A stretch of 37,438 nucleotides of DNA, taken from Gammaproteobacteria bacterium (lineage in GTDB: Bacteria > Pseudomonadota > Gammaproteobacteria > Enterobacterales > Kangiellaceae). Position numbers and translations under genes: made by a program. Where the stretch lies: NCBI GenBank assembly GCA_029880585.1, contig JAOUOC010000005.1, positions 1 to 37,438 on the forward strand. The letters are read 5' to 3'. Below the pieces are notes generated by a model. It worked only from the letters and a program-made list of their open reading frames with translations. It was not told where the DNA came from and made no database searches. Shown in pieces: positions 401 to 27,889 of this stretch (the first letter of the stretch is position 1; every line of letters begins with the position of its first letter).

Positions 401-484
401 GTAGGTTGGCGGTGAGTTTACGAACCCCAACATTATTGTCTCGTTTTAATCAACCGTTTTGTTGGGGTTTACACCCCAACCTAC
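401..484. repeat. REP-like imperfect palindrome, copy 1
   Basis: The left arm starts GTAGGTTGG and ends AACCCCAACA. The right arm starts TGTTGGGGTT and ends CCCCAACCTAC. The arms are about 25-32 nt, imperfectly complementary and separated by an AT-rich loop. The form resembles the palindromic repeats spread by REP-associated tyrosine transposases, and is here embedded in the tandem unit. It could also terminate transcription of the peptidase gene. Confidence 0.7.
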
Positions 485-950: not shown

Positions 951-1397
951 TTATCCACCTATCATATCGTCAATCTCATACGATGTATTTGAGTAGACTC
1001 TTTTGTACTTTCCATCAACAAACTTATAAATCATTACCAGATCAAATTCTTTTAGTATATTCTCTTTTTCACCAGTCTGAATGACAATACCCGAAATAAC
1101 TATTTCTTTAAATCCATCACCAGATATATCAATCAAATCTGATTTTAAATAATCATTTTTAAAATAATATCCTTCATCATGAACATCCCACAAATGTAAA
1201 AAGAAACTATTTTCCAAATACATTGACCCATTTCCCTTGGATGTTTTATTAAAAATTAATTCGACTGATTTTCCATTTCCAATCTCTACGTTAACAACTT
1301 TGTCATACACTTCTTCGTCTTTTAATTCATCTGATAAATCATAAGCATTAATACTTAAACTAAACAAACATAACAAAATACTATTTAAAATTTTCAT
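951..1397 (-). CDS. Small exported protein of unknown function
   Basis: The 148-residue product starts with a clear signal peptide (MKILNSILLCLFSLSINAYD, probable cleavage after NA), so it is probably periplasmic or secreted. The mature part is acidic. Around residue 95 it contains DISGDGFKEIVISG, which resembles the Asp-rich calcium-binding loop seen in FG-GAP/VCBS and dockerin-like repeats. I recognise no family. The start has a GAGGGTG Shine-Dalgarno sequence 2-8 nt upstream. A conserved promoter-like element, shared with two other genes in the window, lies about 80 bp upstream. Function is not inferable from sequence. Confidence 0.7.
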   Translation of the reverse strand: MKILNSILLCLFSLSINAYDLSDELKDEEVYDKVVNVEIGNGKSVELIFNKTSKGNGSMYLENSFFLHLWDVHDEGYYFKNDYLKSDLIDISGDGFKEIVISGIVIQTGEKENILKEFDLVMIYKFVDGKYKRVYSNTSYEIDDMIGG

Positions 1398-1456
1398 TAC
1401 ACCCTCATTTATTATTTAAAAATTAGCGACAATAAACATAACCCGAACAAAACCAG

Positions 1457-1512
1457 CCAGTACACTTTAGGAGATATCCTACACGAATAATAGGTGATTT
1501 CTCAATAATTTA
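1457..1512 (-). promoter_or_regulatory. Shared promoter/operator-like element, copy A
   Basis: On the minus strand a TTGAGA (1500-1505) is followed after 18 bp by TAGGAT (1476-1481), with the spacer ending TATTATTCGTG. The core TAGGAGATATCCTA (1468-1481) has perfect 5 bp inverted arms. The same layout recurs at 2367-2425 and 27831-27889, each time upstream of a minus-strand gene. A predicted start near 1469 would leave a leader of about 72 nt. Confidence 0.6.
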
Positions 1513-1600: not shown

Positions 1601-2338
1601 CTACCACACAACAATACGATTTTTTCCAGCTTCCTTGGCACGGTACATTGCAAGATCCGCTTCATTTAGCAAAACATCAGGGCTTATTTTTTCAGGCGTT
1701 AAAAGACGTAACCCGATACTGGCCCCAACTTTATGAGGCGTATCATTAATAGAAATCTCTTTGGTTAATTCTTTGAGAATTCTATCGGAGATCCGCATTG
1801 CCTCTTTATTTGCTTTAACTTCATCCTTACCTGTCTCGCTTAGCACAACAACAAATTCATCCCCTCCCACACGACTGACAATGTCTTCGTTTCTTGTTAA
1901 AGAGGTTAGGCGAGCAGCAACTTCAATAAGGATCTTGTCTCCTACATCGTGTCCATTACTGTCATTTATTTTTTTAAATCCGTCCAGATCAATAAATAGA
2001 AGTGCGCCATAGAATTTATCCCTTACTGAAAGAGATATCAATTTACCTAGATATTCTGTTAGTAAACGACGATTTGCCAGTTGAGTTAAAGAGTCATGAT
2101 ATGCCATATGTCTGACTTGATGAAGAGCTTCATCACGAGCAATTACATATGGCTTTATTATCCAAAGATAAATTAAAGGTGTTGAAAATGTTACTAATAT
2201 TATTACGTCCAGAATGGCTTCGGCAAATATACCTATATCCAAAGATAAGTTTGCAAAAACAAGCATTATGACCAACTCTAACAAGGCAATAATGGCAATT
2301 ATGCTCAGAATAATATTTTTCTTACTTGGTATTTGCAT
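1601..2338 (-). CDS. Membrane-anchored diguanylate cyclase (GGDEF)
   Basis: The 245-residue protein has two N-terminal membrane segments (about 8-30 and 38-61) and a C-terminal GGDEF domain. The active-site motif GGDEF is at 158-162. An RNED inhibitory I-site (149-152) sits exactly five residues before it, so the enzyme should make cyclic di-GMP from two GTP and be feedback-inhibited. LTQLANRRLL and DLDGFKKINDSNGHDVGD are the other family signatures. There is no recognisable periplasmic sensor domain and the loop between the membrane segments is very short. The ATG at 2338 has no good Shine-Dalgarno sequence, so a slightly different start is possible. The promoter-like element copy B ends about 30 bp upstream. 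Confidence 0.93.
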   Translation of the reverse strand: MQIPSKKNIILSIIAIIALLELVIMLVFANLSLDIGIFAEAILDVIILVTFSTPLIYLWIIKPYVIARDEALHQVRHMAYHDSLTQLANRRLLTEYLGKLISLSVRDKFYGALLFIDLDGFKKINDSNGHDVGDKILIEVAARLTSLTRNEDIVSRVGGDEFVVVLSETGKDEVKANKEAMRISDRILKELTKEISINDTPHKVGASIGLRLLTPEKISPDVLLNEADLAMYRAKEAGKNRIVVW

Positions 2339-2366
2339 AATTTTACTGGATACCGCAACAAATCAA

Positions 2367-2425
2367 GACAGCCTACATATACAAGATATCCTACATGAAT
2401 ATGAGATGATCTCCCAATAAATTTA
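2367..2425 (-). promoter_or_regulatory. Shared promoter/operator-like element, copy B
   Basis: On the minus strand TTGGGA (2412-2417), an 18 bp spacer and TAGGAT (2388-2393) line up with copies A and C. The flanking CTACATAT and GACAG (forward strand) are also shared with copy C. A predicted start near 2381 gives a leader of about 43 nt for the diguanylate cyclase gene. Core: AAGATATCCTACATGAAT. Confidence 0.6.
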
Positions 2426-26404: not shown

Positions 26405-27388
26405 ATGACAATGACCGAAAAGTCAAAAGAAGAAATTGTCACACTTTCAATTTGCATTGCTTTCGTTCTTGCCGTCGCACCATTTGCGGTGATCCGAGCT
26501 TTAAATAATGAATGGACAATCGCCATATTTGATGCAGTTTTATGTATTACCATGCTATTGCTTGGCATGTATATTCATTTTACAAAACGAATAGACATTG
26601 CAAGGGTAGTATTTTCATTGATTATACTTTCTGCTGTTATGACCACTATTTATCTTAAAGGACGCGATCAAATTTTATGGGCTTACCCAGCTTTGATCAG
26701 TCTATTTTATGTCGTTTCACCCAAAACTGCTCTCAAATTAACAGCAGCATACTTGTTTATTCTGATACCAATTGTTTACCCAACAATGAACATTTTTCAG
26801 TTAATATCTTTTTCAATAACCTTGTTCATTACAATTTTCTTTTGTTATATCTTTGCCAAACAATCGCTCAAACAACAGGATAAACTCGTCAGTATAAGCT
26901 TAACCGATCCATTGACCAATATAGGCAATAGAAGAGCGCTTGAATATAAATTAGATGAAATACGCAACATACACAAAATTTCAGACATCAACTCCTGTTT
27001 GATTATTTTGGATATCGACAGATTTAAATCTATAAATGATACTTATGGTCATCAAGTTGGCGACAACATTTTAATTCAATTAACCAAAATCATCTCGAAA
27101 AGGATCCGTAATAGTGATGGCCTATACCGATATGGTGGTGAGGAATTTGTCATTGTAATGCCTTATACAGAATTACGTCATGCTCAAATAGTTGCTGAAC
27201 AAATACGGGAATTGGTAGAAAACAACCATATAGCAGACCTAAACGTCACCATTTCATTGGGAGTTGCTGAGTTGATTAATAAAGAATCAAGTAAAGATTG
27301 GGTCAAGAGAGCTGATGATGCCTTGTATAAGGCTAAAAACTCAGGCAGAAACATCTGTTTTCTGGCTGATCATAAAAAAGTTGGGTAA
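26405..27388 (+). CDS. Diguanylate cyclase with multi-helix membrane sensor
   Basis: 327 residues. The first ~155 contain five or six membrane helices with almost no external loops, resembling MASE-type integral membrane sensors but not assignable to a named class. The GGDEF domain follows with LTDPLTNIGNRRALEYKLDE, ILDIDRFKSINDTYGHQVGD, an RNSD I-site (235-238) and the active GGEEF at 244-248, so cyclic di-GMP synthesis with product inhibition is expected. GAGGTG provides a Shine-Dalgarno sequence for the ATG. It is divergent from relA and convergent with the MAPEG gene, whose stop lies 3 bp past its end. Confidence 0.93.
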   Translation: MTMTEKSKEEIVTLSICIAFVLAVAPFAVIRALNNEWTIAIFDAVLCITMLLLGMYIHFTKRIDIARVVFSLIILSAVMTTIYLKGRDQILWAYPALISLFYVVSPKTALKLTAAYLFILIPIVYPTMNIFQLISFSITLFITIFFCYIFAKQSLKQQDKLVSISLTDPLTNIGNRRALEYKLDEIRNIHKISDINSCLIILDIDRFKSINDTYGHQVGDNILIQLTKIISKRIRNSDGLYRYGGEEFVIVMPYTELRHAQIVAEQIRELVENNHIADLNVTISLGVAELINKESSKDWVKRADDALYKAKNSGRNICFLADHKKVG

Positions 27389-27391
27389 TAA

Positions 27392-27796
27392 TTATTCGAA
27401 AAAATAATTAAACCACATAAATAATACAGCTAAAAAATTAAGTGTAAACACCACCCCTCTAAGTCGAATATTATTGGTAAAAATATGAACTGTACTGTGG
27501 ATTATACGACCAAAAATAAATAGCCATGCCAGAAATATAGCTCTGGTAGATATTTCATTGCCATCAAGCATTAGAATCAGGCAGATCACATAGAAGAACA
27601 AAGGCCATTCAAATTGATTTGATAAATTTGCACTAATTTTTGGCTCAATATGAGCCATCGGGTTTGAACCATCTTTTGAACTACCAATTCCCCAAACACT
27701 TGGTGCTCTGACAATTGTCAGTAGAACATATAAAAGTCCCGTCAACACAACATGTGCAAACATTGGATAAAACAGTATATTTTCAGAAACTTGCAT
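27392..27796 (-). CDS. MAPEG-family membrane protein
   Basis: The 134-residue product has four predicted membrane helices. NQFEWPLFFYVICLIL and RIIHSTVHIFTNNIRLRGVVF are typical MAPEG segments (membrane-associated proteins in eicosanoid and glutathione metabolism). Bacterial members are mostly of unknown activity and some bind glutathione. Its upstream region carries copy C of the promoter-like element shared with the first diguanylate cyclase and the small exported protein. Confidence 0.88.
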   Translation of the reverse strand: MQVSENILFYPMFAHVVLTGLLYVLLTIVRAPSVWGIGSSKDGSNPMAHIEPKISANLSNQFEWPLFFYVICLILMLDGNEISTRAIFLAWLFIFGRIIHSTVHIFTNNIRLRGVVFTLNFLAVLFMWFNYFFE

Positions 27797-27830
27797 AGCA
27801 TTCCTCTTTTAACCAGAACTCTAGAAATCG

Positions 27831-27889
27831 GACAGTCCACATATGTAAGATATCCTACACGAATAATGACTGACCTCTCAAGTAATTAG
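27831..27889 (-). promoter_or_regulatory. Shared promoter/operator-like element, copy C
   Basis: On the minus strand TTGAGA (27876-27881), an 18 bp spacer and TAGGAT (27852-27857). The core TGTAAG-ATAT-CCTACA (27844-27859, forward strand) is nearly palindromic. A predicted start near 27845 gives a leader of about 49 nt for the MAPEG gene. It is the best-preserved palindrome of the three copies. Confidence 0.6.

Follow-up and report, generated by a model that had tools for sequence, protein, structure and literature searches.

Three promoter-like upstream elements on a Kangiellaceae contig are probably solo copies of a transposase-linked repeat family

A short element occurs three times (copies A, B and C) on the minus strand of contig JAOUOC010000005.1 of a Gammaproteobacteria bacterium of the Kangiellaceae. 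The window, that is, the whole stretch of DNA that was analysed, is 37,438 nt long. The three copies are best explained, with a probability of about 0.8, as solo copies of a repeat family of ~65 nt that is linked to a RAYT-type (IS200-like, Y1) transposase. They belong to one family, whose members are dispersed, lie in a divergent layout beside transposase genes and form doublets in one relative. The family is new, and its kind is already known. What looked like a puzzling common upstream element would be part of a transposase-linked repeat family, which gains a profile from this work.

Three copies of one element in the window

The window belongs to a draft genome of 2,931,353 bases (2.93 Mb; 384 contigs, 92% complete), hereafter the source genome (G000). 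The copies were delimited as follows:

Copy A, 1447..1512, minus strand: TTGAGA at 1500-1505, TAGGAT at 1476-1481, degenerate outer end GTGTACTGGCTG
Copy B, 2358..2424, minus strand: TTGGGA at 2412-2417, TAGGAT at 2388-2393, outer end GTAGGCTGTCT
Copy C, 27823..27888, minus strand: TTGAGA at 27876-27881, TAGGAT at 27852-27857, outer end GTGGACTGTCC

As a first-pass annotation of the window had described, all three are in the same orientation and carry TTGRGA, exactly 18 nt, TAGGAT, plus a GATATC. Their similarity spans ~66 nt, with 38 invariant columns out of 69, most of which fall outside the two hexamers. The 17-mer TATTCRTGTAGGATATC, with up to three mismatches, is matched three times in the window, where 0.20 matches would be expected, and none of 100 shuffles reached three. 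With the 33-mer core, at the same tolerance, A, B and C were the sole matches in the source genome, and none of 60 relatives contained one. The likeness of the copies is therefore real, as had been claimed, and is not due to chance. Pairwise identities among the three are 65, 69 and 74%, a range overlapping the 45-68% of pairs with other copies of the source genome. A scan of the window against Rfam gave nothing at gathering thresholds, and megablast of positions 2600-27000 against plasmids gave no match.

A wider repeat family in the source genome and in relatives

The source genome and 40 relatives were scanned with a sequence-only profile for which A, B and C were the sole input. This genome scan, which the first-pass annotation had proposed for a control element, brought out a wider, diverged repeat family. 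Diverged copies were recognised in the source genome on contigs C216 (E 1e-6), C354 (4.6e-6), C162 (1e-5) and C243 (0.006). Two of the 40 relatives had matches below E 1e-3, G002 (best 1.4e-5) and G015 (best 8.6e-5); at E ≤ 5, something was found in 26 of the 41 genomes, mostly noise. A second, wider profile was built from 21 sequences, which match it by construction, and at E ≤ 0.5 gave 16 matches in the source genome, 37 in G002 and 107 in G015, weak ones included. The copies are dispersed: five further copies of the source genome sit on contigs other than that of A, B and C, and in relatives copies point both towards and away from gene starts.

Several candidates were set aside during these searches. 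Exact matches to the 17-mer in viral contigs (four loci) were judged to be chance, with no TTGRGA at the expected position on inspection by eye, and a match with one mismatch on contig C296, which likewise has none there, was dropped. Readings of the element as an integron attC site or as a group II intron were dropped on judgement.

Linkage to a transposase gene

Units in G015 encode a 321-aa protein that matches the Pfam family Y1_Tnp with 26.2 bits (cut-off 23) and the NCBIfam family REP-associated tyrosine transposase (REP_Tyr_transpos) with 37.3 bits, below the cut-off of 80. Two repeat-containing units have 1310 nt in common at 93.5% identity, ending at the outer edge of the repeat. This transposase was matched in all nine genomes searched. 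The source genome has a single match at E ≤ 0.001 (C354:7969-8394, E 1e-54), cut by the contig end, and a repeat copy lies 74 nt 5' of this gene, pointing away from it (divergent). Among the matches listed for eight genomes, the repeat is found 57-92 nt upstream of at least 23 of the 63 transposase starts, and all 23 are divergent. The conserved outer end of the promoter-like copies is the same as that in front of transposase genes.

In G015, 45 stretches match the transposase (for example at loci L163, L155 and L151); several are near-identical and many are partial or contain stops, which suggests that the transposase recently spread and decayed in that genome. Upstream regions of five homologous transposase genes (Pseudoalteromonas, Shewanella, Photobacterium and Catenovulum) gave no match to the model at E ≤ 1. 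Upstream of position 701 in loci L209, L210 and L211, which hold transposase genes of Pseudoalteromonas and Shewanella, GGGTGTCTG or GGGTGTCTA can be seen by eye ~60-80 nt upstream, and the Pseudoalteromonas genes show, also by eye, a GACA-type inverse near the start codon. It is possible that GGGTGTCTG or GGGTGTCTA and the GACA inverse together form an end signature of this transposase group.

Inverted doublets in a relative and singlets in the source genome

In the stretches fetched around matches, 23 pairs of neighbouring copies lie no more than 30 nt apart. All but two of these pairs (21/23) are inverted, with outer ends outward and gaps of 5-24 nt, and all 21 are in G015. When aligned, most G015 doublets, which are roughly 130-150 nt long, have inverted ends of the form AGACAG...CTGTCT. 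The repeat also contains TGTAGGAT; a REP/REPIN unit is palindromic, has a 5' GTAG foot and folds as a hairpin. A broad regulon finds no support: the family is dispersed and transposase-linked, and in relatives occurs in both orientations and in inverted doublets, which is the mobile repeat that the first-pass annotation had given as the outcome refuting a control element.

The transposase presumably recognises the repeats as single-stranded DNA, and would have spread non-autonomous copies of them around the genome, the repeat itself probably being the end of the transposase element. Many copies in G015 are inverted doublets; the source genome yielded only diverged singlets and one contig-cut transposase gene.

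Several observations weigh against this explanation. With 21.1 bits, the transposase fragment of the source genome falls short of the Pfam cut-off of 23, and it has no NCBIfam match. Among the matches listed, 40 of the 63 transposase starts are without a repeat, including all 11 in G004, and on the 3' side a repeat was listed within 900 nt of at least 7 out of 49 transposase ends, five of the seven pointing outward; because so few 3' ends have one, a two-sided element is only putative. A strong copy in G002 (C225:20705-20761; L175:10706-10762) is embedded in a transposase-like match that runs on the opposite strand. A second arm was detected at none of the ten source-genome copies (search within 150 nt; best E 0.96), so that the copies in the window are singlets. 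Finally, five single copies of the source genome fold no better than shuffles (z 0.35 to 1.81), and since single copies fail this hairpin test, the family does not qualify as classical REPs.

Possible promoter use of solo copies

A secondary use of solo copies as promoters is possible. The geometry of the promoter-like element described in the first-pass annotation stood up: the -35/-10-like pair TTGRGR-N17/18-TAGGAT is present in eight of the ten source-genome copies. The mean best forward promoter score (obtained with a weight table and approximate shuffles) is 7.9 for these ten; doublet arms (42) reach 5.7, other singlets (41) 4.8 and shuffles 4.6-4.9. The profiles that recovered the source-genome copies had been started from the hexamer-bearing A, B and C, which biases them towards copies that keep the hexamers and above all towards those on C243 and C264, recognised by the first profile solely in the half bearing the two hexamers. 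Part of the excess in score may thus be selection by the search profile.

Simple ORF (open reading frame) calls of at least 60 aa place an ORF downstream of nine copies, eight of which point at the ORF start from a distance of 21-209 nt. The exception (C277) is oriented towards the end of a gene, and for the tenth copy (C222) the contig end is reached. Six of these eight have divergent genes on either side, a setting in which both orientations would lead to a gene start, so only A and the C216 copy are informative on orientation. The C264 copy has as its target an ORF of only 69 aa, and on C162 the copy and an 89-aa ORF call overlap. REPs are reported in PMC3733652 to lie mostly in unidirectional and convergent positions; compared with these, the share of divergent positions is unusual, though the number is small. 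A dedicated promoter scan around the three copies found no excess (7 against 7.6 expected near A and B, with B missed, and 5 against 3.5 near C).

An alternative sigma-factor promoter class had also been suggested. The motif TTGAGA-N16-19-TAGGAT occurs seven times in the source genome against none in the reversed control, and 12 times against 11 in the control in eight other genomes together. Because six of the seven matches belong to one repeat family, we see here a small set of promoter-like repeat copies and not a genome-wide promoter class, and that suggestion finds no support. As judged from sequence, TTGAGA-N18-TAGGAT of the source-genome copies may now drive the adjacent genes, at less than even odds.

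Alternative explanations

The copies could instead be promoters or operators of a small regulon, with a sigma-70-type promoter and, in the conserved part downstream of it, a site for a regulator, their likeness to transposase repeats being secondary. Hexamers kept in eight of ten copies with a score of 7.9 against 4.9 in shuffles, the orientation towards ORF starts, and the recognition of C243 and C264 in the hexamer half all speak for it. They have to be set against the position of most start-pointing copies between divergent genes and the doubtful targets on C264 and C162, the lack of any evident common function in the six of eight downstream ORFs that were scanned, the outer end shared with transposase genes, and the promoter scan without excess. 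The search profile, built from hexamer-bearing copies, preferentially finds hexamer keepers, which also counts against this alternative, and we regard it as rather unlikely. In a further reading, the transposase would have been domesticated in the source genome: the repeats would be co-regulated promoters of unrelated genes, bound by the single remaining RAYT-type protein as a regulator. This we consider a long shot. If true, it would be a natural example of a system of promoter (REPIN) and transcription factor (RAYT), which its own proponents call speculation (PMC8049555).

It is improbable that a local duplication within one contig, and not transposition, gave rise to A, B and C. The three do share a contig and the 33-mer core found in them alone, and are somewhat more alike than other pairs, in overlapping ranges; against this, similarity between copies is limited to ~60-70 nt, and the five further copies lie on other contigs. 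A chance resemblance of ordinary AT-rich sigma-70 promoters would be easy to suspect in this AT-rich sequence, where promoter-like matches are common. It can hardly be credited, because of the uniqueness of the 33-mer, the shuffle test and the profile matches to diverged relatives, and the invariant columns lie mostly outside the hexamers.

Comparison with known systems

The closest parallels are the TIRtrons, or TIRYT repeats, of Di Nocera et al. 2013 (PMC3733652). As in our family, a RAYT-type tyrosine transposase gene there adjoins long repeats that are also dispersed as singlets and dimers. Their GGGGWSAS motif, however, is found in none of the 21 repeats aligned here, and their repeats flank the gene on both sides, whereas among the matches listed here at least 23 of 63 genes have one on the 5' side and at least 7 of 49 on the 3' side. 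The family works like a TIRtron as regards the transposase and the dispersal; strict membership is left open.

REPINs, treated together with RAYTs by Bertels and Rainey 2011 (PMC3116915), are alike in their inverted doublets, in the link to a RAYT and in singlets being regarded as decayed remnants. They differ in that our arms are ~60 nt long and single copies form no hairpin beyond shuffles, and in that the source genome yielded only singlets, in few copies, with the doublets being in G015. The doublet architecture is that of REPINs and of the dispersed TIR families of TIRYT genes, as reported in PMC3116915 and PMC3733652, respectively.

From its length, copy number and taxa, we would guess that the transposase belongs to subclass 2.3 of TnpA(REP) in PMC6006769: it has 321 aa, is multi-copy in relatives and has homologues in Pseudoalteromonas. 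No REP-like structures beside subclass 2.3 were reported in that paper. Multi-copy 321-aa RAYT-type transposases resembling a group reported without REP-like flanks would thereby be tied to a doublet-forming dispersed repeat. Mobile promoters in prokaryotes, as cited in PMC8049555, are likewise short dispersed sequences assumed to act as promoters; here, by contrast, a transposase link is visible and the promoter role of the repeat is only putative. The family offers a small case for the question of whether solo repeats turn into promoters.

Genes and other repeats beside the copies

The ORFs downstream of the three copies are:

951..1397, minus strand: ORF downstream of A, 148 aa, N-terminus signal-peptide-like by eye
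1601..2338, minus strand: ORF downstream of B, 245 aa, GGDEF (diguanylate cyclase) protein
27392..27796, minus strand: ORF downstream of C, 134 aa, MAPEG family protein

These assignments agree with the exported-type, diguanylate cyclase and MAPEG genes named earlier; the 148-aa ORF has no Pfam match at E 0.001 and no NCBIfam match at 0.01. The upstream placement was also correct, at slightly shorter distances than the 30-60 bp first given: from the nhmmer edges at 1448, 2360 and 27824, the ORF starts are 50, 21 and 27 nt away for A, B and C. Relatives of the diguanylate cyclase were sought in the genome contigs and found at nine loci (28-40% identity). For the MAPEG protein, the best matches in 20 relatives were outside the genus (56% in G010, 54% in G009), which offered no basis for an empty-site comparison. 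Next to the MAPEG gene, and on the other strand, is a second GGDEF gene (26405-27388).

The window also holds three REPIN-like inverted repeats (397-490, 626-717 and 853-945) with GTTGGGG/CCCCAAC cores, ending in CCTAC; two begin with GTAGG and one with GTATG, and they form a family distinct from A, B and C. They are part of a 228-nt tandem triplication, in which the 3' end of the ORF at 18-389 is repeated as well. At locus L172, fragments with the outer end TCCATAAGTGGACTGTCCGGTTTT only (104-129 and 443-467, minus strand) stand beside GTTGGGG-type repeats, so that both repeat families, the one with the A/B/C outer end and the GTTGGGG type, are found there side by side.
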